NCBI GenBank assembly: GCA_037447655.1 | Contig: JBBHKE010001969.1 | Coordinates: 493,841-557,840 of the forward strand | DNA length: 64,000 bases | Reading direction: 5' to 3' | Origin: Zygnema cylindricum | Taxonomy: Eukaryota > Streptophyta > Zygnematophyceae > Zygnematales > Zygnemataceae | Shown: positions 24,776-47,455 of the stretch, piece by piece | How the letters are laid out: each line of letters begins with the position of its first letter | How positions within the stretch are numbered: position 1 is the stretch's first letter | Translations under genes and position numbers: made by a program | The notes under the pieces: model-generated | The model's database searches: none | What the model was told of the DNA's origin: nothing | Seen by the model: only the letters and a program-made list of their open reading frames with translations

Positions 24776-25842
24776 TGCAATTGTGAGACCTCCATAAGTC
24801 CTCAGAATGGACATCTTCAAAGAAGCCTCTATGATAACCCTGACCCCTTTGTGTTTCAGCAAGAACAACTGCCACCCTAGCTGACAAAAACTCTCACCAC
24901 CTTCACCCTTGTGAAGGCAAGACTCCCCTGAGTCTATAGCAAAAAGAATCTCTGAATTTGCTCCCCTGAGCAGTTAGTTATGGAGGGTCAAAGTTGACTT
25001 TTTGTACAAAAGTTTTTTGGGAGAGAGGGTCCTATCTACCAATTTTTCTAAGTCCTATATCTCTCACAAACTCTATCTACTGATGTACGAAACCAATCAT
25101 ATTACACTTCCGTACACAAAAGTACAGCTGTCGATGTACTTTCTGTACGGATACTGTACGACATGGCCTAAAAGTTGACACATGTCATATCCGGATTCGG
25201 TCTAGTAATCCCCGGAGATGCCGCGATCCAAGGTAATTTCGCCACGTGTCATCCGATGTGGCGATGACCACAAACCGCCGAGATTCTCTTCCGCGATCTC
25301 AGCTTTCTTCCCGGCCGTCCGATTGAATGTAGATTTCAATCGTAGCCGTCATAAATACTTGCGCGATATTTATTTCGTTAAAGAAACCAATGCGCGATAC
25401 TCGTTTCTTATACATACCGTAATCCGTACTTTTACATAACAGGATCTATGTATCCTGTAAACAGTTTCAGTTAAATGAATTATCCTAAGTGGCAATTTTA
25501 AAATAAATAACAAACCCTAGAACATGTATCACTAGTCCTCGACTTAACGGATAAGTCTACCGGCTACCGGCTGCTTTACGTTCGGTAGGTACCAAGATCA
25601 AATCCTGGTTCCGACATCTACCCTTTTAGTAAAAAAACTACCTATCGGTAAATCAACTATTCTAATTCCCGTAAACCTCTGGATAGCCTAGGTAGCCATG
25701 GCTCTAGCTTCCTCTCTAACTCCTTAGTGACTGTGACAAGTGTGGGAGTTGGAGAGAGAAGTTAGAGATAGACTGCCTCGGCTTTTTTCTGTATTTCTAT
25801 TTAGACCTAGAAAATACTTAAAAAGGACCATCAATTTCTACA
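24776..25842 (-). repeat. 3' LTR of copia element 1
   Basis: A 1,067-bp LTR ending CAATTTCTACA, directly followed by the polypurine tract (complement of CTCCCCTTATTT). It contains a GTAC block (25,082-25,170), tRNA-like module (25,543-25,627) and stem-loop (25,713-25,757). Confidence 0.85.
25543..25627 (+). other. tRNA-like module in LTR
   Basis: CTTAACGGATAAGTCTACC (A-box-like), GATCAAATCC at 25,596-25,605 (B-box-like), TTTT at 25,624. It is antisense to the pol genes and points into the 3' end of pol. Confidence 0.6.
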
Positions 25843-25855
25843 CTCCCCTTATTTT

Positions 25856-28620
25856 CTAGTCAATCTTTAATTTTAGACCACACTTCTCCCTACAAAAAAT
25901 TAGCTTATGGGAAGGCACAGGTTTGGTCATCATATCTGCTACCATCTCGCTATCTAGTTGGTACACTAAACTGATTATTTTATTTTCTACTTTCTCTCTA
26001 ACAAAGCTGAGTCTAATGTCCATATGTTTGGCTTTGAAATGATGTTTAAGATTGGCAGAAATAGCGATTGCTGCCTGATTATCACAAAATATTTTCTGCA
26101 CACCACTCTTAAGGTGACGAAGCTCACCAAGCAAAGAATTGACCCAAATCAATTCTTTTATAGCAGAGCAAGAGGCCATATACTCAACCTCCATGGTGGA
26201 CTGAGCAATAACCTTTTCTTGTTTGCTACTCCAACAGCAAGCCCCATCACCCACATATAATACATATCCAGAAGTACATCTCCTCATCGGAGCATCACCA
26301 TAACTGGCATCACTCCAAGTAGTGATGTCAATATTCTCCCCACCCAAATGCAACCATAGATCCCTATTTCCTATCAAATATCTAAGGATTCTCTTAGCTC
26401 CCTCCGAATCCCTCTTAGTGGGAGCATTTAGACTTCTACTCAGCACTCCTACAGCTGCAGCTAAATCCGGCCGAGTACAATTCATAAAATAGATTAGACT
26501 TCCCACTACTTGCCTGTAAGGAATAGTCTGCATGAACTTCTGTTCTTTAGGAGACAATTCCTCGTCTAAGACTATGACTCCTTATTCCTCACTCCCCTCA
26601 ATTCCTTTCTTTAACTCCATTGGAGTTGTACAACTATTAGCTTTATCCATCTGAAATTTTTTATGCATGTTCCCTATTGCCTCCCTTTGAGTCAATCTTA
26701 TAATCTTTCTTTTTCGGTCTCTTTCTACTTGAATTCCCAAAATATATCTTGCTTCTCCCATATCCTTCATTTCAAATCTCCCCTTAAGATCGGTTTTCAG
26801 TTTATTAATTTTTTCCATTGATTTACTTAAAACAAGCAAATCATCAACATAAATTGCAATAAATATAACACCTTCATCATCTTCAAAACCATAGATTGAT
26901 TGATCTGAGCTGATCCGGATATATCCCAGACCGATAAGAAACTCATCAAGCTTCTTATTCCACTGTCGAGGCGCTTGTTTTCAAACCATAAAGAGAATTA
27001 ATCAACCGACATACTTTTCTCTCCTCTCCTTCCTCCACAAATCCTTCGGGTTGTCGCATGAAGATCTCCTCTTCCAATTCTCCATGCAAGAAGGCTATCT
27101 TGATGTCCATCTGGTGCACCTCCATGTCATCCGCTTCTGCTAGACTGAGAAGTATGCGGACGGAGGGAAATCTAACGACCAGGGCAAAGATTTCCTCGTA
27201 GTCAATTCCCTCCTTTTGTGAAAAATCCCTTTGCCACTAATCGGGCCTTGTACCGCTCAATTATGTTATCTGGGTTCAGTTTTAATTTGAAAACCCACTT
27301 ACAACCAATTAGTTTTTGGTTAAGTGGACAATCCACCAGCTCCCAAGTATCGACTGCCATAATTGAGGCCAACTCCTCATTGATGGCTTTCTTCCACCGG
27401 TTTCTTTCTGGACAAGTCATCGCCTCTCCATAAGTCTAAGGTTCATCTTGATGAGATAGTTTTATTACCTTGTTATTAACCTGTTTTTCTTGCAATCGTT
27501 TGCTACTTCTCCTCCCCCCCTCAAAATCTGAGGCCGGAATAGATGTTTCTCGTGGATTCTTTCGAACTATCTCACTTCTCCCCTATCCCTTGATTCTGAA
27601 TCAATTTCCACCACGTCTTCCGCTTCGGGTAGAGTTGTCACTAGAGTTTTCGCAGCCGAGTCCTTTTCAGTCTGATTTGTACCTGCAAGGATGTCATCTT
27701 CTCTAAAACCTGGATAGTTAGGAAGCTCAAAGTCATCGGATTTTTCTGACTCAAATCTGATTTTTACTAACTTTGTATACTTGAAGGGATCCACACACTT
27801 TCCTTCATCCATAACTACTAGATGCTTTACTAAGATTATATCTTCCCTTTTTAGATCATAAACTCTATATCCTTTAACATCCTCATCATATCCTAATAAG
27901 TATCGCGGTTTTCCTTTAGGATCTAGCTTCCAATTAGACCGATCTGTATCTAGACTCAATACTTGACTGTTGAAAACCTTTAAGTGAGATATGTCTAGTT
28001 TCCAGCCTGCCCATCTCTCATAAGGTGTTTGATCTTTTATAGCTGAAGTAAGAACTCTATTCTTGAGGTAATTAGCACAATTCATTGCTTCTGCCCAAAA
28101 CCTTTTTCCTATCTTTTTATCTGACAACATACTTCTGGCACTATCACTTAGTGTTCTATTTAACCTTTCAGCCACCCCATTCTGTTCCAGGTTTTCTGGA
28201 ACTGTCTTTTGGTGTTGGACTCCATCTTCCCTCAAAAAATCCTCAAACTGGTTAGAAGTAAACTCTCCACCATTGTCACTGCTTACTCTCTTGATTGGAG
28301 TTTCATGGAGTTTTTGGCTCTATGCTTTAGGATTGTCTAAAACAATCCTAAACTTCTGACTTGTTTTTCAAAAAATACACCCTGGAATACCGAGACCAAT
28401 CATCAGTGATAGTCATCATAAATCTCTTCCCCCTCGGTGAGGGAAATTTAGCCGGTCCCCAAATATCTGTGTGTACTAAATCTAGAATTTTTTCTCCCTT
28501 ATAGGTGGTTGTTTTGGGAAAGGGTAATCTGTGTGCTTTACCTTGAGCGCATCCACTAGAATCACTCATAATCCCTTCCACCACTCCCATCTTTTTCATC
28601 TCTCTTAACTTATCTAGATT
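25856..28620 (-). pseudogene. copia pol remnant of element 1 (integrase, RT, RNase H)
   Basis: From right to left on the minus strand: integrase core with DLVHTDIWGP and TDDWSRYSRVYFLKN (28,348-28,620), its end with EQNGVAERLNRTLSD (27,567-28,235), RT start with WKKAINEELASIM and GCKWVFKLKLNPDN (27,202-27,420), the RT catalytic IAIYVDDLLVLSK near 26,810-26,850, and an RNase H domain with TWSDASYGDAPMRR and IFCDNQAAIAIS (25,856-26,557, open to the natural stop). Frameshifts and stops separate these blocks, so no intact polyprotein remains. The catalytic YVDD and RNase H acidic residues are still readable. Confidence 0.9.
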
Positions 28621-28625
28621 CACAT

Positions 28626-29954
28626 TGTTGTTCTTTGGTCTAAAATAGACCGCAGAAGCGACCCAAACTATCACGCAAAAAGCTAAGCAAAAGTAGGTCG
28701 ACCAACAATCATATGAAATGCATCCTCCATATGCGTACACAGACGCAACAAACAACATTTAGGGTTTCATGGAATAATCAACATAAATAAACCCTATGAC
28801 AACATCTAAGGTTTGATGGAATAATCGACATAAACAAACCCTAGGACAAATGCATAAACAATGCATATCAAACATATATAAAATAACATAAATAAATAAT
28901 AAAAACACATACATCACACATAAACAAGAGTATAATCAAAGTATAATCAAATAATCATTATATCATTCAAAGAGCATGACCTAATCGACAACCCTAAAAT
29001 ACTACATCTTTGGTCCCCACTTTACTAACCAGCATTGATGATTCATTCCTAACAAAGCTCATTCCTATATACAGTATACACTTGTGAGCTGTCAAATAAT
29101 CACTAAGTGTCATAAATTACGTTACTGTCACTAAATCCTATTTACGTATAATAACCTTTTAGTAAGAGTAAACTAATCGTAAGCGTACACCTGAAAGACA
29201 AGCAATCGTAAGCGTACACTTGTCTGCAAATACGACACATAAAGACACACAATTAAACTGTCGATATCCTCATTGATCACCTAAAATATAACTATTTTAA
29301 TCAACACTAAATCATTAATTCAAATAAGACAAAACATTGATGCTTCAAAAATTTACACCGACGCATCCAAAAATCCGCGTCATAAGTGACAACTTGCTTA
29401 GTCACTTGTCGATAAGTCCACGCAGCAAGCCGATGTCACATACTTACGGCCCACTTGATCATACATTCTCAAAATAGTGTGATCCATCAAAAAGCGGTGG
29501 ACGCCGTCTGCCTTCGAAGTACAATACAATCCACTGGTTGAAATAATACGGTACCATCAAAATCTTGTCCGTACCGAAAACCGCGTACTTCGTCATAAAT
29601 GCCGCACGTCAAAATTGAAGTATACTTATCCAAAAAGATTCTTTTGTACCATCGCGTACTTTCCATAATTGTCGCCCGTCACATTAGATTTCGTACGGCC
29701 GGCGTACAATTTAAATATTTCAAACATTTCATATCGGATCGCGAAGCGATCCGCCGTCCATTTCCATTTTGTATTCCGTATTATTCGTACGCTTCTTCGC
29801 GTCACTCAATTTGTAATTTACGTCACTTTAAATTCATTCGTACAATTTCCCCCCAAACTACAAATCCATTCGAACCACCATATTACATTTGGTTACTAAG
29901 TATGCGAACATGCGAGCGCACGCATGTACGAAAATGAATCTTCCAAAAACAACA
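28626..29954. mobile_element. solo LTR of a second family inside element 1
   Basis: Ends TGTTGTTCTTTGG and CCAAAAACAACA, flanked by CACAT (28,621-28,625 and 29,955-29,959), and interrupting the integrase region of element 1; the copia sequence resumes exactly at 29,955. TG/CA ends and a 5-bp duplication identify an LTR with no internal domain. The 1,329 bp contain AAACCCTA repeats on the left and GTACG-rich DNA on the right. It lacks the tRNA-like module and stem-loop of the other LTRs. Confidence 0.88.
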
Positions 29955-30171
29955 CACATGCCCAAGCCTCTTATGCCACATCATAATATCATGAACACCA
30001 GCATACTAAAGTTTCTTTGTTTCATTACTTAAAATCGGCCTAAACATCCCTTAGCTACCTTTCTCAGCAATGAAATAGACCTCCTCCTTAAAACTAGCAG
30101 TAAAGACTCCTTCCTTAGTGCTAGTAAAAAAACCCTTATCATCTAATACAGATGTAAAGATGAGGTTTTTG
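29955..30171 (-). pseudogene. copia element 1, protease/pre-integrase fragment
   Basis: Continuation of element 1 after the solo LTR. It matches the pre-integrase region of element 3 (complement of CATGCCCAAGCCTCTTATGC onward). It stops at 30,171, where element 2's LTR begins. Confidence 0.85.
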
Positions 30172-31219
30172 TGAAACTCTGAGACCTCCATAAGTCCTCA
30201 GAGTAGACAGCTTCCAAGAAGCCTCTAGGATAATCCTGACCCCTTTGTGTTTCAGCAAAAATAACTGCCACCGTGGCAAACAAAAACCCTAACCACCTGC
30301 AACCTTGTGAAGGCAACACTCCCCTGAGTTGATAGCAAAAAGAATCTCTGAATTTGCTCCCCTGAGCAGTAAGTTATGGAGGGTCAAAGTTGACCTTTTG
30401 TACAGAAGCTCTCTGGGAGAAAGGGTCCTATCTTCTAAAGTTTTCTAAGTCCTATCTCTCTCACAAACTTTATCTACTGATGTACGGAACCAATCAGAAT
30501 AGTTCCGTACGCAAAAGTACAGCTGCCGGTGTACTTTAGGTACGGACATTGTACGACATGGCTTAAATGTCGACACATGTCATATCCGGATTCGGTGCCA
30601 TAATCTCCGGAGATTCCACGATCCAACGTAATTTCGCCACGCGTCATCCGATGTGGGGATGGCCACAAACCGCCGAAATCTTCCTCCGCGATCTCGGCGC
30701 TAATTGCGGCCGTCCGATTAGAATGTAATTTAATCGTAGCCGTAATAAATACATGCGCGGTATTTGTTTCATTTACGAAACAAATGCGCGGTATTGAGTT
30801 TTAGTCCGTACCGTAATCCGTACTTTATATATTACCGGATCTATGTATCCCGTAATCTATTATAGTTAAATGAATTATCGTACGTATACATATTTAATTA
30901 ATTATCAAACTATATACTACGTAACATTAATCCTAGACTTAACGGCTAAAGCTACCGGCTATTTCTTGTCTGCCGGCCGGTAGGTACAAGGATCAATTCC
31001 TGTCGCCGGCACATACATTTTAAATAAATAAACCTTAACTAATATAAATTTCTCGTAAACCTCAGGATAGCCTAGGTAGCCATGGCTCTAGCTTCCTCTC
31101 CAATTTCTCAGTGACTGCGACAAGTTTGAGAGTTGGAGAGAGAAGTTAGAGATAGACTGCCTCGACTTCTTTATTTCTTTTCAGACCTAGAAAATACTTT
31201 AAAACCATTAATTTCTACA
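30172..31219 (-). repeat. 3' LTR of copia element 2
   Basis: TGAAACTCTGAGACC to ATTTCTACA, 1,048 bp. Closest to the LTRs of element 3. Contains a GTAC block (30,480-30,560), tRNA-like module and stem-loop (31,097-31,140). It begins with a hairpin, ACTCTGAG pairing with CTCAGAGT. Confidence 0.88.
30938..31021 (+). other. tRNA-like module in LTR
   Basis: CTTAACGGCTAAAGCTACC, then GATCAATTCC at 30,991-31,000, then TTTT at 31,018-31,021. Same architecture as the copies at 25,543 and 41,199. Confidence 0.6.
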
Positions 31220-31363
31220 CTCCCCTTATTTTCTAGTCAATCTTTAATTTCAGACCACACTTCTCCTTGCAGAAAATTAGCTTAGGGGAAGGCACAGGTT
31301 TGGTCATCATATCTGCTACCATCTCACTATCTGGTCGGTACTCTAAACTGATTATTTTATTTT

Positions 31364-34300
31364 CTACTTTCTCTCTACAAAGCTGAGTCTAATGTCCATA
31401 TGTTTGGCTTTAAAATGATGTTTAGGATTGGCAGAAATAGCAATTGCTGCCTGATTATCACAAAATATTTTCTGCACAACACTCTTAAGATGACCAAGTT
31501 CACCAAGTAAAGACTTGACCCACATCAATTCTTTTACAGCAAAGCAAGAGGCCATATACTCAGCCTCCATGGTGGACTGAGCAATAACCTTTTGCTGTTT
31601 GCTATTCCAACAGCAAGCCCCATCACCCACATATAATACATATCCAGAAGTGCATCTCCTCATCGGAGCATCACCATAACTGGAATCACTCCAAGTAGTG
31701 ATGTTAGTATTCTCCCCACCCAAATGCAACCATAGATCCCTAGTTCCTACCAAATATCTAAGGACTCTCTTAGCTGCCTCCCAATCCTTCTTAGTGGGAG
31801 CATTTAGACTTCTACTCAGCACTCCTACAGCTGCAGCTAAATCCGGCTGGGTACAATTCATAAAATAGATTAGACTTCCCACTACTTGCCTGTAAGGAAT
31901 AGTCTACATGAACTTCTGTTCATCAGGAGATAATTCCTCGTCTAAGACTATGACTCCTTCTTCCTCACTCCCCTCACTTCCCTTCTTCAACTCCATTGGA
32001 GTTGTACAACTATTAGCTTTATCCATTTGAAATTTTTCAAGCATGTTCCCTATTGCTTCCTTTTGAGTCAGTTTTATAATTTCCTTTTTCGGTCTCTCTC
32101 TACTTGAATTCCCAAAATATATCTTGCTTCTCCCATATCCTTCATTTCAAATCTCCCCTTAAGATCGGTTTTCAGTTTGTTAATTTTTTCCATTGATTTA
32201 CTTAAAACAAGCAAATCATTAACATAAATTGACATAAATATAAAACCTTCCTCATCTTCAAAAACTTAGATTGAGTGATCTGAGCTGATCCGAATATATC
32301 CCAGACCGGTAAGAAACTCATCAAGCTTCTTATTCCATTGTCGAGGTGCCTGTTTCAAACCATAAATAGATTTAATCAGCCGGCATACCTTACTCTCCTC
32401 TCCTTCCTCCAAAAAACCTTCGGGTTGTCGCATGAAGATCTCCTCTTCCAATTCTCCATGCAAAAAGGCTGTCTTGATGTCCATCTGATGCACTTCCATG
32501 TCTTCCGCCGCTGCTAAACTGAGAAGTATGCGGACGGAGGGAAATCTGACCACCAGGGCAAAGGTTTCCTCGTAGTCAATTCCTTCCTTTTGTGTAAATC
32601 CCTTTGCCACTAATCTGGCCTTGTAGCGCTCGATTGTGTTATCTGGGTTTAGTTTAAATTTGAAAACCCACTTACAACCGATTGGTTTTCGGTTAGGTGG
32701 ACAATCCACCAGCTCCCAAGTATTGGCTGCCATGATTGAAACCATCTCCTCATTGATGGCTGTCTTCCACCGATTTCTTTCTGGATAAGTCATCGCCTCT
32801 CTATAAGTTTGAGGTTCATCTTGATGAGATAGTTTAGGTACCTTGTTATTAACCTTTTTTTCTTGCAGTCTTTTGCTACTTCTCCTCCCCCCCTCAAAAT
32901 CTGAGGCCGGAATAGATGGTTCTCGTGGATTCTTTCGAACAAACTCAACTTCTCCCCTATCCCTTGATTTCGAATCAATTTCCACCACGTCTTCTGCTTC
33001 GGGTAGAGTTGTCACTAGAGTTTCCACAGCCGAGTCCTTTTCGGTCTGATTTTTACCTGCAAGAATGTCATCTTCTCTAAAACCCGGATAGTTAGGAAGC
33101 TCAAAGTCATCGGAATTTTTCTGACTCAAATCTGATTTTTACTGACTTTGTATATTTGAAGGGATCCACAGACTTTCCTTCATCCATAACTACTAGATGC
33201 TTTACTAAGATTATATCTTCCCTTTTTAGATCATAAACTCTATATCCTTTAACATCTTCATCATATCCTAATAAGTATCGCGGTTTTCCTTTAGGATCTA
33301 GCTTCCAATTGGACCGATCAGTATCTAGGCTGAACACTTGACTGCCGAAAACCTTTGAGTGAGATATGTCTGGTTTTCGGCCTGTCCATCTCTCATAAGG
33401 TGTTTGATCTTTTATAGCTGAAGTAAGAACTCTATTTTTGAGGTAATTAGCACAGTTCATTGCATCTGCCCAAAACCTTTTTCCTATCTTTTTATCTGAC
33501 AACATACTTTGTAGCACTATCACTTAGTGTTCTATTTAACCTTTCAGCTACCCCATTCTGTTCCGGATTTCAGGAACTGTCTTTTGGTGTTCAACCCCAT
33601 CTTCCCTCAGAAAATCCTCAAACTGGTTAGAAGTATACTCTCAACCATTGTCACTCCTTACTCTCTTGATTGGAGTTTCATGGAGTTTTTCGCTCCATGC
33701 TTTATATTGTCTAAAACAATCCTCAACTTCGGACTTGTTTTTCAAAAAATATACCCGCGAATACCGAGACCAATCATCAGTTATAGTCATCATAAATCTA
33801 TTCCCCCCCCGGTGAGGGCACTTTAGCCGGTCCCCAAATATCTGTGTGTACTAGATCTAGAATTTTTTCTCCCTTATAGGTGGCTGATTTAGGAAAGGGT
33901 AATCTGTGTGCTTTACCTTGAGCACATCCACTACAATCACTTATATCATCACTTTCACTGAACTGAATCCCTTCCACCACTCCCATCTTTTTCATCTCTC
34001 TTAACTTATCTAGATTCACATGCCCAAGCCTCTTATGCCACATCATAATATCATGAACACCAGCATAATAAAGTTTCTTCTTTTCATTACTTAAGATCAG
34101 CCTAAACATCCCATGGCTACCTTTCTCAGCAATGAAATTGACATCCTCCTCAAAACTAGCAGTAAAGACTCCTTCCCTAGTGCTAGTGAAAAAACCCTTA
34201 TCATCTAATACTGATGTAGAGATAAGATTTTTGTTCAGCTCCGGAATAAACAATACATCGGAGAATGTTAATATGGATGTCTTTCCTTCTACTAACACTT

Positions 34301-34880: not shown

Positions 34881-35838
34881 TGAGTTCTATATCCACCTTG
34901 AGTGCGGCAAGTCCTGCATGAAACAGTGAGACCTCCATTGGCCCTCAGAGTAAGCAGATCCAAAAGAAGCTTATCTAGATAGTGCCGACTCCAAATTGAT
35001 ATAAACCCAAATGACTGACCCCTTGACAGTCAGAACCCCAATATAGATTCACCCCTGTGAAATAAGACTTTCTGTGTGCTCAGTTCTACCACAGAATGCA
35101 AAGTTAGAATACGAGTTTTGGACACATTCAACCACTTTGAATTTCCCTTATAAATGCAGCCACCCCGACAGGCATAAACTTTGACCAAATACACCCCTGT
35201 GTAGGTTGGACTCCCCTGAGTCGGCAACAAAAAGAATCACTGAAAATGGTCAAGTAAATTGATAGTTATGGCTGGCCAAAGTTTGCCATTTATACAAGAT
35301 GCTCTCTGGGAGAGGCGACTACCTTGTGAAAAATTATAAGTCCTATTCTCACTCTAAGATCCTATCTATTGACGTACGACACCAATCACTTTACAGTACT
35401 GTACAGATAAGTACAGGTGCCGGTGTACTTTATGTACGACAATCGTACGATATGGTTGAAATGTCGACACATGTCATATATCTATTTGTTCCCGTAATCT
35501 CCGGTGGCGCCGCAATCCAATGTTGACGTGCCACGTGTCATCCTATGTGGTGATGACCGTAAACCGCCAAAAGTACATATCCCGTGATCACGGCGCCTAC
35601 CGTGGTCTTCCGATCAAATCTGGCTACATTTCTAGCCGTTGGAAATAGTCGCGCGGTATTTGTTTCGCGGACGAACCAAATGCGCGGTATCCGTTTCAAT
35701 AAAGAAATCCGTACTCCGTACTATCTATAACTGTATCTATGCCATGCGTATATATTTCCAGTTAAATGAACTAGTCTACGTGAAACTATTTTAATATTTA
35801 TCAAACCTCTTACGTGGTAACGTTAGCTCTAGTCTAAA

Positions 35839-37138
35839 TGTTGATATTTGAGTATTTTCTAGGTCTATTTTAGGATAGGAAAATAGCAGAGGCAGTCTGC
35901 CTCTAACTTCTTCTCCTAGCCCCCACACTTGTTGTAGTCACTGGAGGCTGAAAAGGAAGCCAGAGCCATGGCTGCCAAAGCTGTCTAGAGAGACAGGTAG
36001 TAGAATCTGAGTAGATTTACCAAAAGGTATGACGGCCCCAGGATTTGATCCTGGAACCTGCCGTCCGTCATAATAGCCGTTAGCCTGAACCGTTTAGTGT
36101 AGGACTTGTGCTAAGTGATATAGGGTTTGATATTTATTTAAACCGGTAGACGTAGGTTTTCCCATTTAACAGATTACGGTCTATAGGACATAGAAACCGT
36201 TGTACTATTAGTACCGGACGAAACAAATAGTACAGACATTTGTTTCGACGGTTCGTATTTAATACCTACATCAATCGGACGGCTGTGGTTAGCGCCGGTC
36301 TCGCGAAAAGGACAATTTGGCGGTTTTCGGACTCCGCCACTCTGGATGACACGTGGCAACAACGTACGGGATTACAGAATTTCCGGAACGGCAGAAAACA
36401 AATCCGGAAGTGACAAATGTCGCACTATGGCGACATCGTACAATGTACGTACAGAAAGTACTCCGGCACTTGTACTTTCTTGTACGGTACTCATTTACTG
36501 ACGCGGCATGACCTGGCGCCACGTGGAGAGATAAGATTTGGAGGCAGGAATTTCGGAGATTATAAGAGCGAATCCGAATAAAACATGTGTTTACTTTTGA
36601 GCCGTGTCGTACATTAACCGTACAAAAGGTACACTGACATCTGTACCTTTATGTACTATACAGTAATGCGATTGGTTTGTACCTCAGTACTAGAGGGTTT
36701 AGAGAGGGGTTTAGGACTTAGAATATTTCTGGTAAGTAGCTGCCTCTCCCAGAGAGCACCTTGTATAAATGGCAAACTTTGGCCAGCCATAACTATCAAT
36801 TCAGTTGACCAATTCCAGTAATTCTTTTTGCTGCGGACTCAGGAGAGTCCAGGCTACACAAGGGTGTAGTCGGTCAGACTATTTGCCTTCCAGGGTGGCT
36901 GCATTTCTAGGGGAAAGTTAAAGTGGGTGAATGTGTCCAAAACTCATATTCTAACTTTGCATTCTGTGGTGGAACTGAGCACACAGAAAGTCTTATTTCA
37001 CAGGGGTGAAGCTCTAATGGGGTTCTGATTGTCAAGGGGTCAATCATTTGGGTTTATATCAAGTTGGAGTCGGCACTATCTAGATTAGCTTCTTTTGATC
37101 TGCGAATTCTGTGTGGCAATGGAGCCCATAAAATTTCA
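35839..37138 (+). mobile_element. inner solo LTR (element sense = plus)
   Basis: TGTTGATATTTGAG to CCCATAAAATTTCA, 1,300 bp, flanked by a perfect CTAAA duplication (35,834-35,838 and 37,139-37,143). It contains the stem-loop (about 35,910-35,960), the antisense tRNA-like module (36,022-36,100), a GTAC block (about 36,425-36,490), a second GTAC/TGTACC block near 36,610-36,650, and TTGTATAAATGG near 36,762 as TATA box. It is inserted at the 5' edge of the outer LTR's tRNA-like module. Confidence 0.92.
36022..36100 (-). other. tRNA-like module in LTR
   Basis: Minus strand: TAAACGGTTCAGGCTAACGG, then GGATCAAATCC (complement of 36,041-36,051), then TTTT (complement of 36,022-36,025). Confidence 0.6.
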
Positions 37139-37222
37139 CTAAACGGCTAAAGTCACCTGCTTAGGGCAGATTGACGGACGGTAGGTACCAGGATCAATCC
37201 TTCGATCCGTCAAGTACCTTTT
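37139..37222 (+). other. tRNA-like module in LTR (interrupted 5' edge)
   Basis: CTAAACGGCTAAAGTCACC, then GGATCAATCC at 37,191-37,200, then TTTT at 37,219. The first five bases are the target duplication of the inner LTR; the original upstream flank is at 35,838. Confidence 0.55.
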
Positions 37223-37446
37223 GGTAAGTCTTACTAATTTACCCCCTGTCTTCTCTAGAGAGCATAGGCAGCCATGGCTCTAGCTCCCTATCCAGCCTTC
37301 AGTGACTACAACAAGTATGGGGGCTTGGAGAGGGGAGTTAGAGACAAACTGCCTCTGCCTTTTTCTATCCTTTTTACAGACCTAGAAAATACACAAATAT
37401 CAACACTATACACGGTTGACTATGTTCTCGAACTCATCGGGTAACT

Positions 37447-37981
37447 TCAACAGTAAACGATATCCTTTTCTTTTTCACTAAAATCTTTTCCCGCACTCTC
37501 TAGCTCCATGAAAAGTGTAGCAAGCTCATTGCAAAAATCCAACATCTTACCCCCTTTGTATACATACTCCTTAATTTTCTGATCAGCCAACTGTTGTTGC
37601 TGAATCGTACCGCTTCGGTACATCTCTATGAGAGCTATCCAAAGATCGGATTCCCTTTCTACCTGCAAATGAGGACATGCAATCCCTTGAATAAGATGGC
37701 GGAGGATGAAGTGCTTTGCCGCCATATTGTTGAAGTCCCAAGTTTCAGTATCATTCTCCTCGTTCCTCGGAATAGGTGAGATGAATGCTGAACCAATTGC
37801 TATTGGTGTGGTCATCTCCTTCTCCGTTCTTTTGTCCACCACCTCTCTTTCCTTTGTCTCCTCCGTTGAAGATGGATCTGCTTTCCTTGTGAATCTGCTT
37901 CCTCCAAACCCTGGAGGGATTCAAAGACTTGATGGACGCCCCACTCGTCCATTCACTATCCCCCAAAACCTTGTCTCGCAT
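37447..37981 (-). pseudogene. copia gag N-terminal remnant (element 1/2 chimera)
   Basis: Minus-strand translation has TETWDFNNMAAKHFILRHLI, LWIALIEMYRSGTIQQQQLA and KEYVYKGGKMLDFCNELATL, matching the gag of element 3 at 45,200-45,760. The reading frame is open for 131 codons and then broken upstream. It belongs to element 1, element 2 or a recombinant of both. Confidence 0.8.
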
Positions 37982-38051
37982 AGAGCCCCTATCATCATAG
38001 TGGTCAGAATATTTGTGTGCCTGGGCGGCGCTTATTCAGCGGGAAAGTAGA

Positions 38052-38140
38052 AGGGGCAAATATTATCCTAGAGGCTTTACATAGGCTGCTCATTCTGTGG
38101 GTCAATGGAGACCACAGAATTTCAAAGCCTCTAGGATAAC
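38052..38140. repeat. fold-back at the inner edge of element 1's 5' LTR
   Basis: TTATCCTAGAGGCTTT (about 38,052-38,068) is complemented by AAAGCCTCTAGGATAA (about 38,121-38,136), enclosing ATTCTGTGG and CCACAGAAT, themselves inverted. The first LTR bases are thus present as an inverted copy joined head to head to the LTR, not in the normal order. Confidence 0.7.
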
Positions 38141-39144
38141 CCTGACTCCTTTGTGTTTCAGCAAGATCAACTACCACTCTGGCAAACAAAAACTCTCACT
38201 ACCTTCACCTCTGTTAAGGCAAGACTCCCTTGAGTCGATAGCAAAAAGAATCTCTGAATTTGCTCCCTTGAGTAGTAAGTTATGGAGGGTCAAAGTTGAC
38301 TTTTTGTACAAAAGCTCTCTGGGAGAGAGGGTCCTATCTACCAATTTTTCTAAGTCCTATCTCTCTCACAAACTCTATCTACTAATGTACGGAACCAATC
38401 ATATTACACTTCCGTACACAAAAGTACAGCTGTCGATGTACTTTCTGTATGGATACTATACGACATGGCCTTAAAGTTGACACATGTCATATCCGGATTC
38501 GGTCCCGTAATCCCCGGAGATGCCGCGATCCAACGTAATTTCGCCACGTGTCATCCGATGTGGCCATGACCACAAACCGCCGAGATTCTCTTCCGCGATC
38601 TCGACTTTCTTCCCGGCCGTCCGATTGAATGCAAATATCAATCGTAGCCGTCATAAATACTTGCGCGATATTTGTCTCGTTAAAGAAACCAATGCGTGGT
38701 ACTCGTTTCTTATACATACCGTAATCCGTACTTTTACATAACTGGATCTATGTATCCCGTAACCAGTTTTAGTTAAATGAATTATCCTACGTGGTATTAT
38801 TTAAATAAATAACAAACCTTATAGCATGTATCACTAGTCCTAGACTTAACGAATAAGTCTACCGGCTACCGACTGCTTTACGTTCGGTAGGTACCAAGAT
38901 CAAATCCAGGTTCCGACATCTATCCTTTTTGTAAGTAAACTACCTATCGGTAAATCAACTATTCTATTTCCCGTAAACCTCTGAATAGCCTAGGTAACCA
39001 TGGCTCTAGCTTCCTCTCTAACTTCTCAGTGACTGCGACAAGGGTGGGAGTTGGAGAGAAAAGTTAGAGATAGATTGCCTCGGCTTCTTTCTGTATTTCT
39101 ATTTAGACCTAGAAAATACTTAAAAAGGACCATCAATTTTCACA
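38100..39144 (-). repeat. 5' LTR of copia element 1 (inner edge rearranged)
   Basis: Pairs with the LTR at 24,776-25,842 by sequence and shares its AACTA duplication. It contains a GTAC block (38,387-38,470), tRNA-like module (38,845-38,930) and stem-loop (39,013-39,058). Its U5 edge is altered by the fold-back. Confidence 0.8.
38845..38930 (+). other. tRNA-like module in LTR
   Basis: CTTAACGAATAAGTCTACC, then GATCAAATCC at 38,898-38,907, then TTTTT at 38,926. One A-box base differs from the partner LTR. Confidence 0.6.
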
Positions 39145-39169
39145 AACTACCTCAATTTTTGTTTTACAG

Positions 39170-39221
39170 GATGCCACCCTAACTCATCATCTTATGCTAG
39201 CGTTAAAAAAATGCTTGAAAA
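39170..39221 (+). CDS. candidate small host exon, unknown product
   Basis: A 52-bp segment between acceptor TTTTGTTTTACAG and donor AAA/GTAAGTT, both close to consensus, translating DATLTHHLMLALKKCLK. Copia element 1 ends 25 bp upstream, in the pyrimidine-rich end of what would be the preceding intron. It could belong with the exon at 22,655 (same strand), with the element in the intron between, but that exon ends in phase 0 and nothing else links them. Confidence 0.35.
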
Positions 39222-39865
39222 GTAAGTTAAAAGCGTTAATTAGCAATACTCCAGGTCGTTATACAAGAATTAGTAGCGTTGCGAGCACAAGTTTTTTGGT
39301 ATGTGATTGCCAAGGGTATCGATGTAGGTCCGGTACGGAGTGGGAATACCCCCGATACGGCGGTACAAGTCCGTATTTATTTTTAGTGTAAACCTGATCG
39401 CTGGAAACATCATTGCCTGTCGTGGCAATAACATGATTGTTTCGTGCAAACGAACCTCAAAGGTATTTGCACAGGTAATTAACTGAAAGGACCACAAACA
39501 ACGAGCTAAAAGTAAATTGTAGAAAACATCCAAACCATAAGATAGGTTGTTAGGTGTGCTGTGGGTTGAACAGAGGTCGACATGCAAGTATTCATGACCC
39601 AAGGCGAGAAAAAAAAAAGTACCAAAATACCGGCATCACCTGACCTTTAGAATTGGGTTAAAACCAAACCGCAAAATAAATCGGATGGTAATTGGTATAG
39701 TGTGCACCACATAGAAATAGGACATTTTTGAACTACAAGTTGTATAAAGACGGGGAGAAAGAGGAATAATAGCATTGACCTTTTTTACAGAAAAAAATCA
39801 ACGTTTGGGTTCGCATTTGTTAGGCACACAACATTGTACGCCATGTCATGCCCCATCGTGTCGGC

Positions 39866-40080
39866 TGCTCGCGCGCACGATATCATGCCCGCACGCACGA
39901 TATTCGGCAAGCGCGCACGATATAACACACGTATGCGCGATGTTATAAATGCATGCGCGGTATTTCTCACGCACGCGCGGTATTGTACATGCACGCACGG
40001 TTAAAGGCACGCGCGCGCGGTTTTATGTATGCACGCGCGATTTTATGCATGCACGTACGATTTGATGCACGCACGTCTAT
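39866..40080 (+). repeat. CG-rich tandem repeat in 5' LTR
   Basis: About nine degenerate units of 22-26 bp built from ATGCATGCACGCGCGATTTT and relatives. Alternating purine-pyrimidine (CGCGCGCG, GCATGCAC) dominates. Confidence 0.85.
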
Positions 40081-41198
40081 CTTTTTCGTTCGCACGTGTG
40101 AAATTTTGAGTTTGTTCATTTATTTATATGTTTGTTCAACCGTACTTGTTTCGTGCTAGACGTTTCGTTTCGTGCGCAGGTACACACTTTTTGAGTATTT
40201 CGTGCGATACCTTTTATTTCGTGCGTAGGTACTACGAATTTAAAGTATGGACGTGGAGTATCGTGTGGAGGCGAATAGCAATTTCCGGGCGACGCTTCGA
40301 TACACCATTCATTTATTTATTTAAGTCACGAACCCATGTAGGTTCGCGCGCACATGTAGTTAGGGAGGGTTTTTACCCTCAGACGGTGGATTTTGTCAGG
40401 CGTACGTCAAACGACGTTGGCCGCCTATTTGAAACTCTGAGACCTCCATAAGTCCTCAGAGTAGACAGCTTCCAAGAAGCCTCTAGGATAATCCTGACCC
40501 CTTTGTGTTCCAACAAAAATAACTGCCACCCTGGCAGACAAAAACCCTGACCACCTGCACCCCTGTGAAGGCAAGACTCCCCTGAGTCGATAGCAAAAAG
40601 AATCTCTGAATTTGCTCCCCTGAGCAGTAAGTTATGGAGGGTCAAAGTTGACCTTTTGTACAGAAGCTCTCTGGGAGAGAGGGTCCTATTTTCTAAATTT
40701 TTCTAAGTCCTATCTCTCTCACAGACTCTATCTACTGATGTACGGAACCAATAAGAATTGAGTTCCGTACGCAAAAGTACAGTTGTTGGTGTACTTTAGG
40801 TACGGACAGTGTACGACATGGCCTAAATGTCGACATATGTCATATCCGGATTCGGTACCATAATCTCCGGAGATTCCTCGATCCAACGGAATTTCGCCAC
40901 GCGTCATCCGATGTGGCGATGGCCACAAACCGCCGAAATCTTCCTCCGCGATCTCGACGCTAATCCCGGCCGTCCGATTAAATTCGGATTTAATCGTAGC
41001 CGTAATAAATACATGCGCGATATTTGTGTCACTTACGAAACAAATGCGCGGTATTGATTTCGAGTCCGTACCGTAATCCGTACTCTATATATTTTTGGAT
41101 CTATGTATCCCGTAATGTGTTATAGTTAAATGAATTATCGTACAAATACTCATATAATTAATTATCAAACTATATAGTACGTAATACTACTGCTAGAC

Positions 41199-41281
41199 CT
41201 AACGGCTAAGGCTACCGGCTATTTCCTGTCTGCCGGCCGGTAGGTACAGGGATCAAATCCTGCCGCCGGCGCATAACTTTT
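41199..41281 (+). other. tRNA-like module in LTR
   Basis: CCTAACGGCTAAGGCTACC, then GATCAAATCC at 41,251-41,260 in a CAGG/CCTG stem, then TTTT at 41,278-41,281. It lies in the 3' LTR, pointing antisense into pol. Confidence 0.6.
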
Positions 41282-41493
41282 AATTAAATAAATAAACCCT
41301 AATATTAAATTCCCGTAAACCTCAGGATAGCCAAGGTAGCCATGGCTCTAGCTTCCTTTCCAACTTTTTAGTGACTGCGACAAGTTTGAGAGTTGGAGAG
41401 AGAAGTTAGAGATAGACTGCCTCGACTTTTATATTTCTTTTCATACCTAGAAAATACTAATAAAACCATTAGTTTCTACACTCCCCTTATTTT

Positions 41494-44400
41494 CTAGTCA
41501 ATCTTTAATTTCAGACCACACTTCTCCCTGCAAAAAATTAGCTTAGGGGAAGGCACAGGTTTGGTCATCATATCTGCTACCATCTCACTATCTGGTCTGT
41601 ACTCTAAACTGATTATTTTGTTTTCTACTTTCTCTCTAAAAAAGCTGAGTCTGATATCCATGTGTTTGGCTTTAAAATGGTGTTTAAGATTGGCAGAAAT
41701 AGCGATTGCTGCCTGATTATCACAAAATATTTTCTGCACACCACTCTTAAGGTGACCAAGCTCACCAAGCAAAGACTTGACCCACATCAATTCTTTTACA
41801 GCAGAGCAAGAGGCCATATACTCAGCCTCCATGGTGGACTGAGCAATAACCTTTTGCTGTTTGCTACTCCAACAGCAAGCCCCATCACCCACATATAATA
41901 CATATCCAGAAGTACATCTCCTCATCGGAGCATCACCATAACTGGCATCACTCCAAGTAGTGATGTCAGTATTCTCCCCACCCAAAGGCAACCATAGATC
42001 TCTAGTTCCTACCAAATATCTAAGGACTCTCTTAGCTGCCTCCCAATCCTTCTTAGTGGGAGCATTTAGACTTCTACTCAGCACTCTTACAGCTGCAGCT
42101 AAATCCGGCCGGGTACAATTCATAAAATAGATTAGACTTCCCACTACTTGCCTGTAAGGAATAGTCTGCATGAACTTCTGTTCATCAGGAGATAATTCCT
42201 CGTCTAAGACTATGACTCCTTCTTCCTCACTCCCCTCACTTCCCTTCTTCAACTCCATTGGAGTTGTACAACTATTAGCTTTATCTATTTGAAATTTTTC
42301 AAGCATGTTCCCTATTGCTTCCTTTTGAGTCAGTTTTATAATTTTCCTTTTTCGGTCTCTCTCTACTTGAATTCCCAAAATATATCTTGCTTCTCCCATA
42401 TCCTTCATTTCAAATCTCCCCTTAAGATCGGTTTTCAGTTTGTTAATTTTTTCCATTGATTTACTTAATACAAGCAAATCATCAACATAAATTGCAATAA
42501 ATATCAAAACTTCCTCATCTTCAAAGACATAGATTGAGTGATCTGAGCTGATCCGAATATATCCCTGACCAGTAAGAAACTCATCAAGCTTCTTATTCCA
42601 TTGTCGAGGTGCCTGTTTCAAACCATAAAGAGATTTAATCAGCCGACATACCTTACTCTCCTCTCCTTCCTCCACAAAACCTTCGGGTTGTCACATGAAG
42701 ATCTCCTCTTCCAATTCTCCATGCAAAAAGACTGTCTTGATGTCCATCTGATGCACTTTTAATGTCTTCCGCCGCTGCTAAACTGAGAAGTATGCGGACG
42801 GAGGGAAATCTGACCATCGGGGCAAAGGTTTCCTCGTAGTCAATTCCTTCCTTTTGTGTAAATCCCTTTACCACTAATCTGGCCTTGTAGCGCTCGATTG
42901 TGTTATCTGGGTTCAGTTTTAGTTTGAAAACCCACTTACAACCGATTCGTTTTCGGTTAGGTGGACAGTCCACCAGCTCCCAAGTATCGCCTGCCATGAT
43001 TGAAGCCATCTCGTCATTGATGGCTGTCTTCCACCGATTTCTTTCTGGACAAGTCATCGCCTCTCTATAAGTTTGAGGTTCATCTTGATGAGATAGTTTA
43101 GGTACCTTGTTATTAACCTTTTTTTCTTGCAGTCTTTTGCTACTTCTCCTCCCCCCCTCAAAATCTGAGGCCGGAATAGATGGTTCTCGTGGATTCTTTC
43201 GAACAAACTTGGCTTCTCCCTTATCCCTTGATTCCGAATCAATTTCCACCACGTCTTCCGCTTCGAGTAGAGTTGTCACTGGAGTTTCCACAGCCGAGTC
43301 CTTCTTGGTCTGATTTGTTCCTGCAAGAATGTCATCTTCTCTAAAACCTGGATAGTTAGGAAGCTCAAAGTCATCGGAATTTTCTGACTCAAATCTGATT
43401 TTTACTGACTTCGTATATTTGAAGGGATCCACAGACTTTCTTTCATCCATAACTACTAGATGCTTTACTTAGATTATATCTTCCCTTTTTAGATCATAAA
43501 CTCTATATCCTTTAACATCTTTATCATATCCTAATAAATATCCCGGTTTTCCTTTAGGATCTAGCTTCCAATTGGACCGATCAGTATCTAGACTGAACAC
43601 GTGACTGCCGAAAACCTTTAAGTGAGATCTGTCTGGTTTCCGGCCTGTCCATCTCTCATAAGGTGTTTGATCTTTTATAGCTGAAGTAAGAACTCTATTC
43701 TTCGGGTAATTAGCAGAGTTCATTGCTTCTGCCCAAAACCTTTTTCCTATCTTTTTATCTGACAACATACTTCTAGCACTATCACTTAGTGTTCTATTTA
43801 ACCTTTCAGCTACCCCATTCTGTTCCGGATTTTCTAAAACTGTCTTTTGGTGTTGAACCCCATCTTCCCTCAGAAAATCCTCAAACTGGTTAGAAGTATA
43901 CTCTCCACCATTGTCACTCCTTACTCTCTTGATTGGAGTTTCATGGAGTTTTTTGCTCCATGCTTTATATTGTCTAAAACAGTCCTCAGCTTCGGACTTG
44001 TTTTTCAAAAAATATACCCGGGAATACCGAGACCAATCATCAGTTATAGTCATCATAAATCTCTTCCCCCCCGGTGAGGGCACTTTAGCCGGTCCCCAAA
44101 TATCTGTGTGTACTAGATCTAGAATTTTTTTCTCCCTTATAGGTGGCTGATTTAGGAAAGGGTAATCTGTGTGCTTTACCTTGAGCACATCACTTATATC
44201 ATCACTCTCACTGAACTGAATCCCTTCCACCACTCTCATCTTTTTCATCTCTCTTAACTTATCTAGATTCACATGCCCAAGCCTCTTATGCCACATCATA
44301 ATATCATGAACACCAGCATAATAAAGTTTCTTCTTTTCATTACTTAAGATGAGCCTAAACATCCCATGGCTACCTTTCTCAGCAATGAAATAAACATCAT

Positions 44401-45760
44401 CCTCAAAACTAGCAGTAAAGACTCCTTCCCTAGTGCTAGAAAAAAAACCCTTATCATCTAATACTGATGTAGAGATAAGATTTTTGTTCAGCTCCAGAAT
44501 AAACAATACATCGGAGAATGTTAATATGGATTTCTTTCCTTCTACTAACACTTTTAGATCTTCCGATCCTACAAGAGTAGTGGTGACTATCCTCCCATCC
44601 CCGTACTCTATCTCTACGATGGGAATCTTTCTTATCTTAGTGAACAGGTGTCTATCCTTACACATGTGCATGGAGGCACCTGAATCTACAATCCAGCCTG
44701 CTTCACCTTTCAATCCACCGTAAGCACATTTCTGCCTTCGTGGAATTTCGACCTCATTTTTCGCCTCCAACTCCTCATCCAAAAGGAGCTCATCTTCCTC
44801 GTCCTCGGATTCAGCCTCAAGTACCTGTGTGACAAGGGCCTTTTTTTTTCCTCTCAGGGTACCACCGGTCTGCCCCTCCTTTAACCGAAGCTCGTTTAGC
44901 TTAGTGCACTCTGCCATATAGTGCCCCGGTTTCTTACAAAAGTGACATAGACCTTTGGGAGCCCTTGGTTCGAACTCATCGGCTTGTTTTTTCTGCTCCC
45001 TACCCCCATAGTTTCCGACCGGTTTTCGGGGATCCTTGTTCCTCCAATCAGTCGCTGTTGCCAAGGCTTGTCCACTCTTTCCTCCCCTTCGGATTTCAAT
45101 TGTATTCTCTTGAACGAGAATCATCCCTACCACTGAGTTCCATATCCACCTTGAGTCAGGCAAGTCCTGCACACGGTAAACTATGTTCACGAACTCATCA
45201 GGTAACTTCATCAGTAAACAATTAACCTTTTCTTTTTCACTAAAATCTTTTCCCGCACTCTGTAGCTCCATGAAGAGTGTAGCAAGCTCATTGCAAAAAT
45301 CAAACATATTTCCCCCTTTGTATACATACTACTTAACTTTCTGATCAGCCAACTGTTGTTGCTGAATCGTACCACTTCGGTACATCTCTATGAGAGCCAT
45401 CCAAAGATCGGATGCCCTTTCTCCCTGCAAATGAGGACATGCAAGTCCTTGAGTGAGATGGCGTAGGATGAAGTGCTTTGCCGCCATATTGTTGAAGTCC
45501 CAAGTTTCAGTATCATTCTCCTCATTCCTCGGAATAGGTGACATAATTGTCGAACCAGTTGCTATTGGTGTGGTCGTCTCCTTCTCCTTTCCTTTGTCCA
45601 CCACCTCTCCTTCTTTTGTTTCCTCCGTTGAAGGTGGATCCTCTTTCCTGGTAAATTTGGTTCCTCCAAACCCTGGAGGAATTCCAAGACTTGATGGACG
45701 CCCCAACCGTCCACTCACTATCCCCCAAAACCTTTTTTCGCATAGAGCTCCTATCATCAT
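41494..45760 (-). pseudogene. copia gag-pol polyprotein, broken by two stops and a frameshift
   Basis: Gag with a knuckle CHFCKKPGHYMAEC; protease WIVDSGASMHMC; pre-integrase MMWHKRLGHVNLDKLREM; integrase with LVHTDIWGP, RSDNGGEYTSNQFEDFL and EQNGVAERLNRTLSD (DD-E acids present); RT with IGCKWVFKLKLNPDNTIE and IAIYVDDLLVLSK; RNase H with TWSDASYGDAPMRRC, MEAEYMASCSA and FCDNQAAIAIS. Breaks: an in-frame stop in gag at about 45,326 where element 2 has Glu, a stop at about 43,467 where the other elements have Leu, and a one-base insertion near 42,757 in RT. A net 9-bp loss near 44,130-44,195 restores frame but removes the CxxC half of the integrase zinc-binding motif. Each part is otherwise close to element 1 and 2. 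Confidence 0.92.
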
Positions 45761-46593
45761 ACTTTCCTAGTATATGAAGCCAGTTCCATTAAAGATTGGT
45801 ACCCTAGAGGGTGGGCCCATAACCTGAAACTCTGAGACCTCCATAAGTCCTCAGAGTAGACAGCTTTCAAGAAGCCTCTAGGATAATCTTGACCCCTTTG
45901 TGTTTCAGCAAAAATAACTGCCACCCTGGCAAACAAAAACCCTATCCACCTGCACCCCTGTGAATGCAAGACTCCAGTGAGTTGATAGCAAAAAGAATCT
46001 CTGAATTTGCTCCCCTGAGCAGTAAGTTATAGAGGGTCAAAGTTGACCTTTTGTACAGAAGCTCTCTGGGAGAGAGGGTCCTATTTTCTAAATTTTTCTA
46101 AGTCCTATCTCTCTCACAGACTCTATCTACTGATGTACGGAACCAATAAGAATTGAGTTCCGTACGCAAAAGTACAGTTGTTGGTGTACTTTAGGTACGG
46201 ACAGTGTACGACATGGCCTAAATGTCGACATATGTCATATCCGGATTCGGTACCATAATCTCCGGAGATTCCTCGATCCAACGGAATTTCGCCACGCGTC
46301 ATCCGATGTGGCGATGGCCACAAACCGCCGAAATCTTCCTCCGCGATCTCGACGCTAATCCCGGCCGTCTGATTAAATTCGGATTTAATCGTAGCCGTAA
46401 TAAATACATACGCGATATTTGTTTCACTTACGAAACAAATGCGCGGTATTGATTTCGAGTCCGTACCGTAATCCGTACTCTATATATTACTGGATCTATG
46501 TATCCCGTAATGTGTTATAGTTAAATGAATTATCGTACAAATACTCATATAATTAATTATCAAACTATATAGTACGTAATACTACTGCTAGAC

Positions 46594-46676
46594 CTAACGG
46601 CTAAGGCTACCGGCTATTTCCTGTCTGCCGGCCGGTAGGTACAGGGATCAAATCCTGCCGCCGGCGCATAACTTTT
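46594..46676 (+). other. tRNA-like module in LTR
   Basis: Same sequence as the 41,199 module in the partner LTR: CCTAACGGCTAAGGCTACC, GATCAAATCC at 46,646-46,655, TTTT at 46,673. In this 5' LTR it points out toward flanking DNA. Confidence 0.6.
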
Positions 46677-46750
46677 AATTAAATAAATAAACCCTAATAT
46701 TAAATTCCCGTAAACCTCAGGATAGCCAAGGTAGCCATGGCTCTAGCTTC

Positions 46751-46795
46751 CTCTCCAACTTCTCAGTGACTGCGACAAGTTTGAGAGTTGGAGAG
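46751..46795. other. conserved LTR stem-loop (type example)
   Basis: CTCTCCAACTT pairs with AGTTGGAGAG across a loop containing CAGTGACTGCGACAAGT. Equivalents lie at 25,713, 31,097, 39,013 and 41,356, and in the solo LTRs near 20,070, 22,485, 24,320, 35,910 and 37,285. Confidence 0.75.
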
Positions 46796-47455
46796 AGAAG
46801 TTAGAGATAGACTGCCTCGACTTCTATATTTCTTTTCATACCTAGAAAATACTAATAAAACCATTAGTTTCTACACTATTGGCCAACATCTTAAGTAGTT
46901 TTATGCATGTAAAGTAGACTAGACGTAGGCTAATTTTGCTTAGGCATAGCGTAGCTCTTACTTAGCCTAATTTTCAGACTTAGAGAATTTAGCTTTTGGA
47001 CAAGAATTTTCTCTTGGCACTGGAGCTTTTCTCTTGCTCTCTCTCTCAGCGAGTGCCCATGCTTTCTCTTTCTTATTGCCAACTAGCTACAGTGGCTGGA
47101 TAGGTTAAAAATATTTGCCTTTGTTTTTGCCTCGTTTTTAATCCACACGGCTTCGGCCAAGTCCGGAAGGTTTCCCTCAAAACTTGTCTTTGTGGCGATT
47201 GGTGGAGTGGAGGCTTGAGGTGTGGCATCTTCTGTCATGCTGCGCCGTTCTCTAGACAGCTGGACGTTTTTCTTGCGTGTATTTATGTGTGTGGCATTTC
47301 TGTTTTCTTGGAAAAGTGTCATTTTTGCCTAAATCCGATTTTCTTCGTTTTGGTTAGAAGTGATTATTTTGCTTCGTTGCTTTCCTTTGAGATAACTCTT
47401 GTAAAGAATACGTGGAAGACCCGAGAGCCTAGTGGCTACCTCGCGGCTTAGTATT

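Follow-up and report, generated by a model that had tools for sequence, protein, structure and literature searches.

LTR retrotransposons at the locus

The 64,000-nt stretch of Zygnema cylindricum DNA analyzed here (the window, in which all coordinates are positions) holds a nest of copia-type long terminal repeat (LTR) retrotransposons, whose LTR copies are labeled L followed by a number and, together with their parts, are listed in Table 1. The LTRs contain a short module in which stretches resembling an A-box and a B-box are followed by a TTTT run (T-run), and which faces opposite to the genes of the elements. On balance, comparison of these letters among copies makes it probable that a copia LTR lineage carries a tRNA-derived, type 2 RNA polymerase III (Pol III) promoter in its U3 region, in antisense orientation, and that this promoter is still under selection.

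Element C encloses 4.3 kb of gag-pol and was assigned to copia on the basis of an integrase upstream of the RVT_2 reverse transcriptase, a copia gag and a 5-bp target-site duplication (TSD); its gag match (E 1.3e-5) falls just below the Pfam cut-off, while the gag of L059, an element found elsewhere in the genome (below), lies above that cut-off. The primer binding site GGTTATGGGCCCACC is of the half-tRNA primer type, which we take, presuming the sequence of that tRNA, to fit the anticodon region (the middle) of the initiator-Met tRNA. Since the genes of element C are on the minus strand, its plus-strand module is antisense. As to the other copies, element A (L1 and L5) contains element B, element B is cut by the solo LTR L9/L11, and L9/L11 is itself cut by the solo LTR L10; a 5' LTR of element B was not seen in the window. 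The preliminary description of this DNA had divided the copies into copia elements with LTRs and solo copies, and this division holds on TSDs and LTR pairing, with L6, L7, L8, L9/L11 and L10 being solo or partial.

An A-box, B-box and T-run module in the LTRs

Direct reading of the sequence confirmed the ten A-box/B-box/TTTT stretches of that description in position and strand, and the ten can be aligned with the three parts in register. A profile built from them recovers all ten and, in addition, an eleventh match at 24178-24238 (E 1e-4), absent from the earlier list, whose full unit is the second module of L8 (L8b); the T-run is present in 11/11 window modules. An A+T-rich, TATA-like block lies upstream of the L3 A-box, and a T near the 3' end of this block is 37-38 nt from A14 in 25 of the 26 copies aligned below. 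The unit had also been described as pointing into the 3' end of pol, which the positions contradict: the T-run of L3 (41278-41281) ends about 200 bp before the LTR end at 41480, so that normally terminated RNA stays in U3 and would not reach pol.

Conservation of the module in two genome samples

Judging conservation from copies that were found with the module as the query would introduce selection bias, and such copies were not used for this purpose. The LTRs of our first sample, from twenty 10-kb stretches spaced along one contig of the window's 353-Mb genome (L038 is half N), were instead located solely through sequence downstream of the module, probes for which were drawn from window copies and four loci of Q, our label for a sister LTR subfamily that turned up in the genome sample; the Q anchor probes came from loci with modules already seen. 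An antisense unit reached p ≤ 0.05 in 24 of 29 anchor-picked LTR places (10 in the window and 19 outside), with a mean unit score of 17.3 on the antisense strand, 13.6 on the sense strand and 14.0 in shuffled sequence. The five misses comprise one anchor match without an LTR body, one LTR with its upstream part replaced, and three Q copies.

These places were condensed into a 26-row alignment, which drops L051_6180 (no LTR body), L056_7778 (upstream part replaced), L4 (identical to L3 here) and L045_1901 (a near copy of L045_5054), and adds L8a; in a few rows (such as L048, L051_5706, 35975 and 38994) the best-scoring A-box differs from the aligned one. Of the 179 windows of 11 columns, the one at the B-box is the most conserved, and the canonical A/B/T columns are at least 88% conserved in 11/12 cases vs. 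21/177 for other columns (Fisher 7e-9), or in 7/8 cases when the T-run is left out (p 6e-6). Further, the rows follow the known degeneracy of the B-box, with A or T at position 54, a purine at 57 and a pyrimidine at 60 in 26/26 rows. A full TTTT is found in 24/26 aligned copies, and the distances are 39-52 nt from A14 to G53 and 7-18 nt from the B-box to the T-run. That is, A-box, B-box and T-run stand at the spacing usual for a type 2 Pol III promoter with its terminator, the TTTT being absent from some copies of the second sample.

The second sample was picked through gag. L059 is a Q element with LTRs of 1237 bp that are 99.1% identical, TSD CGGTC and the same primer site as element C; its 2.0-kb inside has a copia gag and a zinc-knuckle match, no pol domain was found in the two gag-strand open reading frames (ORFs) searched, and a complete copia pol would not fit into the space. 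The second gag ORF of L059 gave more than 24,000 candidates at first look, and 96 of these were scored (111 match rows); 40 gag places were hand-picked from those, and the DNA was read where an LTR should lie beside each. The LTR piece that includes the module, searched as a profile, is matched at 38/40 places, all on the antisense strand (carriage of the module in this count rests on the profile of the LTR piece with its flanks, box scores having been made separately at the module), and the two places without a match (L088 and L114) also lack the downstream anchor. At the matched module the antisense score exceeds the sense score in 38/38 (means 17.3 vs. 12.9; shuffles 14.2), and 25/38 modules reach p ≤ 0.05 alone. 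In the 15 non-redundant rows obtained by cutting the 38 to 14 under 90% identity and adding L8a (L084 among them is of the window's Y type), the canonical columns again stand out, 11/12 vs. 45/154 others (p 3e-5).

Together, the two samples support the proposal of a tRNA-type (type 2) Pol III unit in this copia LTR lineage, given that the unit is antisense in every copy assessed and its box letters are kept more than neighboring columns in both. The unit is indeed found in the pol-bearing lineage, as first described, but is not limited to it, since the gag-only family has it too. This gag-only copia family includes many copies with long open gag frames and has its LTR type and primer site in common with the pol-bearing family.

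Two units in a row occur in many Q LTRs and, in the window, in L8; L067 has no second unit. We considered L8 as a merely decayed copy and rejected this in favor of a Q-type LTR with two units. The 15 tandem LTRs, L059 included, were found through module a (except L8) and module b was not used as a query; the test of module b took the B-box and T-run as its only column set, left out the single-module L060, L065, L066 and L069, and dropped L064 (like L063). Module b keeps its B-box and T-run letters in 8/9 vs. 110/220 columns (p 0.02).

Derivation from a tRNA

Three Q modules match the tRNA model RF00005 in antisense at the module, with 21.8, 21.4 and 20.1 bits and E values of 5.2, 0.84 and 1.8 over 4227 families; one match spans the whole model and two span positions 7-64 of 71. 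In addition, both boxes reach the full score in two copies, L113 and L097, which also have TTTT. Based on these two perfect copies and the three weak matches, the modules are probably tRNA-derived promoters rather than tRNA genes, the best covariance score (21.8 bits) being below the gathering cut-off of 29. The D-arm of L097/L113 is presumably like that of a tRNA-Arg. A search of public viral contigs led nowhere, and a pattern search of genome contigs returned 8 bacterial-titled records, 7 with module-profile matches, in the T-arm part only.

The same letters might instead serve the sense strand, acting in the element's U3 as enhancer motifs for Pol II or as RNA motifs, with the likeness to Pol III boxes being coincidental. 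A location in U3, where Pol II control is expected, would suit this explanation, as would module stems that pair about equally well on either strand; yet the conserved pattern follows the degeneracy of the B-box, both boxes reach full consensus in two Q copies, and it is the antisense strand that the tRNA model matches, which makes a sense-strand function very improbable.

Weighing selection against passive carriage

Several observations weigh against a selected Pol III promoter. To begin with, loose A+B+T units number 17 in the window (the 11 LTR modules and 6 elsewhere), and 100 dinucleotide shuffles gave a mean of 6.4 per window with a maximum of 15; a lone match, of which about 6 occur per shuffled window, was thus rejected as telling in itself, and the argument has to rest on conservation, not presence. 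In a comparison of seven window copies, conservation of the module block equals that of the remaining LTR (0.63 vs. 0.63), and other LTR blocks exceed it; the B-box window ranks in the top 14% and the T-run in the top 4%, with the A-box near the middle, and the A-box matches 7/9 scored positions in all window units passing the scan. The idea that A-box, B-box and T-run are better conserved than the surrounding LTR is borne out for the canonical columns in both genome samples and fails for the module as a whole in the window copies.

Among the gag-picked modules, 13/38 are not significant alone, and TTTT is missing in 11/38, which lowers our confidence and confines to the window the earlier statement that all three parts are kept despite LTR divergence. 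In 14/38 gag-picked copies the best unit of the whole 441-base segment lies elsewhere on the same strand; hence, the whole-segment scores (21/40 at p ≤ 0.05) do not all stand for the module. Module b of the tandem LTRs has a poor A-box. ARAGORN at standard settings found no tRNA, the window included (lenient settings led nowhere), and the Rfam tRNA model gave no match at the gathering score in the window and none at E ≤ 10 in 20000-47000. The consensus RNA fold is weak (-1.9 kcal/mol), and wobble pairs show no strand bias (19 GU vs. 21 AC). The spacing from the TATA-like block to the A-box was rejected as special: its standard deviation is 0.33 in eight copies, yet 47% of 38-nt LTR intervals have one of at most 0.5. 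Finally, the LTR copies are related, so the column tests overstate independence, and the 88-90% conservation cut-offs were set after the data had been seen.

Some of these points are what would be expected of a relic, that is, of a tRNA-derived short interspersed nuclear element (SINE) that landed backwards in an ancestral LTR and was carried along without function, its boxes looking conserved because the tRNA-like parts are those that can be recognized. The average conservation of the whole module, the missing TTTT runs and the decayed boxes in several copies (e.g., L044_7740 and L8b) fit such a history, and according to the proposal in PMC10886601, tRNA-bearing terminal-repeat retrotransposons in miniature (TRIMs) arose when SINEs inserted into LTRs. 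A passive relic does not account, however, for the selective retention of canonical positions in two sets in whose picking the module played no part, nor for modules in a recent gag-only element with nearly identical LTRs, and we therefore regard it as unlikely.

The Q modules with no TTTT in reach are L098, L099, L101-L103, L105, L107, L110, L111, L117 and L091. In most Q copies of this kind, a further B-box-like site occurs on the same strand, about 160 bp upstream.

Possible role of the antisense unit

For the promoter reading, we propose that the unit was probably gained once and was kept while the LTR split into several subfamilies, being retained in pol-bearing and gag-only families and with one subgroup having two units in tandem. 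TFIIIC would bind the A and B boxes and place TFIIIB and Pol III near the A+T-rich block, and a short RNA of about 80-110 nt would be made, ending inside U3 where the T-run is kept. T-run retention in the window and in the 26-row alignment hints that termination matters; the loss of the T-run in a Q subgroup speaks against termination mattering generally. The selected effect would most likely be in cis, with the occupancy of Pol III factors keeping the LTR open or fenced beside its Pol II promoter, the second choice being an antisense RNA directed at the 3' end of the element itself.

The latter possibility, i.e., a Pol III RNA that controls copy number by pairing with the genomic RNA at its 3' end or by entering small RNA silencing, draws on the orientation and U3 position of the unit, from which any transcript would be complementary to the 3' end of the element itself, and on the T-run in all window modules. 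It also draws on the stem below the T-arm, where 5/8 pairs show paired changes among 17 non-Q modules; in the same modules, the 19 pairs taken together have 75.2% vs. 71.1% of cells paired, above all 500 shuffles. On the other hand, the RNA body and fold diverge, the wobble pairs show no preference for the RNA-making strand and some Q copies lack the T-run, so an antisense regulator appears somewhat unlikely. A conserved RNA fold was likewise rejected as the explanation of the module, given the weak fold and the unbiased wobble pairs; selection seems to act more on the letters of the promoter than on the RNA shape.

A different use would be as an integration landing pad, whereby Pol III complexes on LTRs would draw new insertions into old copies and away from genes, much as tRNA genes are used by Ty3, TRE5-A and DGLT-A. 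The available text of PMC5391098 reports TRE5-A insertion at A/B-box loci other than tRNA genes, the region itself is a nest of LTRs, and L10 sits exactly in the A-box of L9/L11 with TSD CTAAA. This is one such event only, however, and two other LTR-in-LTR insertions (L059 and L047) lie about 340-360 bp from the module, which leaves the landing pad decidedly improbable.

More broadly, from the letters one may tentatively picture a tRNA gene that was taken in as a lasting antisense Pol III unit of the LTR, common to an autonomous copia and its gag-only companion, and that either gives rise to an antisense RNA limiting the element or, by retaining Pol III factors on the LTR, acts as insulator or landing pad.

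The L10 insertion at the A-box is a single event. L059 (221-4700; the Q element) and L047 (614-1919; a Z-type LTR) have each landed in another LTR of the family, about 400-425 bp into the LTR and at nearly corresponding places.

Relation to known Pol III-linked elements

Drosophila copia and yeast Ty5 are half-tRNA primed Pseudoviridae with the copia gene order and a primer site matching the middle of the initiator-Met tRNA, as found here. We know of no Pol III unit in the LTRs of either.

The nearest known systems are the Helenus and Cassandra TRIMs, and the unit described here differs from theirs in its antisense facing and its presence in the long LTRs of coding elements. Helenus (TRIMp3; Kojima 2024, PMC10886601) comprises TRIMs of 311-1263 bp with tRNA-like LTRs, about 320 bp in the longest described in the part of the article available. 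As in Helenus, tRNA-derived A and B boxes lie inside the LTRs of our elements, which also have a primer binding site, a polypurine tract and 5-bp TSDs (the Helenus TSDs are known from fungal and plant cases; in our material primer site and TSD are found in L059 as well), and the primer type that prevails in fungal Helenus is likewise the anticodon loop of the initiator-Met tRNA (PMC10886601). Unlike the short non-coding Helenus, our elements have LTRs of 1.05-1.3 kb (1051-1300 bp) and contain gag-pol (4.3 kb) or gag (2.0 kb). The tRNA part of Helenus is thought to make the template RNA and would thus be sense by implication, although its orientation is not stated and neither "antisense" nor "reverse complement" appears in the available text of PMC10886601. 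In contrast, the unit described here is opposite to gag-pol, and is antisense in 38/40 gag-picked LTRs. Kojima further argues that the autonomous partners of TRIMs have to rely on Pol II and that long stretches of LTR are unlikely to be common to the two (PMC10886601).

Cassandra likewise keeps a Pol III promoter inside its LTRs (PMC10886601, available part), but that promoter is derived from 5S rRNA and belongs to a TRIM, while ours is of the tRNA type, antisense and in coding elements; no 5S rRNA match was found in the window at the gathering score, and none at E ≤ 10 in 20000-47000. Ty3, TRE5-A and DGLT-A also link Pol III factors to retroelements, going by the accessible parts of PMC5391098 and PMC8632968, but they use host tRNA genes or A/B-box loci, whereas here the boxes are in the element itself. 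In the literature searched by title and abstract start, mostly papers free of subscription, no antisense Pol III unit in coding LTR elements was found.

Previously, Pol III promoters in LTRs had been described for short TRIMs, with transcription of the template RNA as their presumed task. Since the unit faces the other way in coding elements, it cannot be there to make the template, and another use is needed, such as in chromatin, silencing, copy number or integration. If true, the tentative picture of a tRNA gene taken in as a lasting antisense unit would mean a self-encoded layer of Pol III control, undescribed for coding LTR elements in the papers found as far as their available parts go. 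Also, tRNA-like matches in such genomes may be LTR parts.

Further features of the window

Table 1. LTRs, element parts and modules in the 64,000-nt window
Feature	Position	Strand	Remarks
L6, solo LTR	20003..21177	+	TSD CCTTC
L6 module	20180..20265	-	
L7, degraded solo LTR	21740..22635	-	left end not fixed
L7 (divergent LTR) module	22353..22429	+	B-box GGTTCGAGTCT
L8, LTR of Q type	23190..24479	-	two modules in tandem; right end approximate
L8a, first module of L8 (Q type)	24001..24085	+	B-box 24057 GGTTCAAATCC; T-run 24082
L8b, second module of L8	24165..24256	+	B-box GGATCAGATCC, without A58
L1, 3' LTR of element A	24776..25842	-	TSD AACTA with L5
L1 module	25540..25627	+	A-box; B-box 25595 AGATCAAATCC; T-run 25624
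L2, 3' LTR of nested element B	30172..31219	-	
L2 module	30935..31021	+	A-box; B-box 30990 GGATCAATTCC; T-run 31018
L9, left part of solo LTR inside element B	34919..35838	-	resumes as L11 at 37139-37405
L10, solo LTR inserted in L9/L11	35839..37138	+	TSD CTAAA
L10 module	36022..36100	-	
L9/L11 module	37136..37222	+	L10 insertion at A-box, TSD CTAAA; first three bases belong to L10
L5, 5' LTR of element A	38078..39144	-	left end degraded, clear match from 38120
L5 module	38842..38929	+	A-box; B-box 38897 AGATCAAATCC; T-run 38926
L3, 3' LTR of element C	40430..41480	-	TSD CTATT common to L3 and L4
TATA-like block, A+T-rich, upstream of L3 A-box	41150..41165	+	
L3 module	41195..41281	+	A-box 41195-41205 (A14 at 41201); B-box 41250-41260 GGATCAAATCC; T-run 41278-41281
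Polypurine tract of element C	41481..41494	-	adjoins 3' LTR
gag-pol of element C	41494..45328	-	three open pieces: gag, integrase, RVT_2 reverse transcriptase
Primer binding site of element C	45810..45824	-	GGTTATGGGCCCACC
L4, 5' LTR of element C	45825..46875	-	98.0% identity to L3
L4 module	46590..46676	+	letters as in L3 module; A-box, B-box and T-run starting at 46590, 46645 and 46673

Within the LTRs, the palindrome AGCCATGGCT at 41338-41348 and its equivalents, about 57 bp beyond the T-run, form the most conserved LTR block among the window copies. Outside the nest, a plus-strand ORF pair at 49149-51080 appears by eye to be gag-like and protease-like (a retroelement) and has no Pfam match, and a search for homologues of LINE-like ORFs (LINE, long interspersed nuclear element) led nowhere. 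An intronless, host-like gene matches peroxisomal dienoyl-CoA isomerases, with a top match of 53% identity over 87% and others at up to 65% over about half; the organism names noticed among the 120 matches listed are plants. Another ORF of the window has a GIL1/IRKI domain, which is regarded as plant-specific. Taken alone, these genes would make the host probably a streptophyte, perhaps an alga. Minisatellite-like arrays with units of 8-12 bp or 46 bp are found at 3059-3428, 5010-5485, 6631-6998 and 56890-57070.

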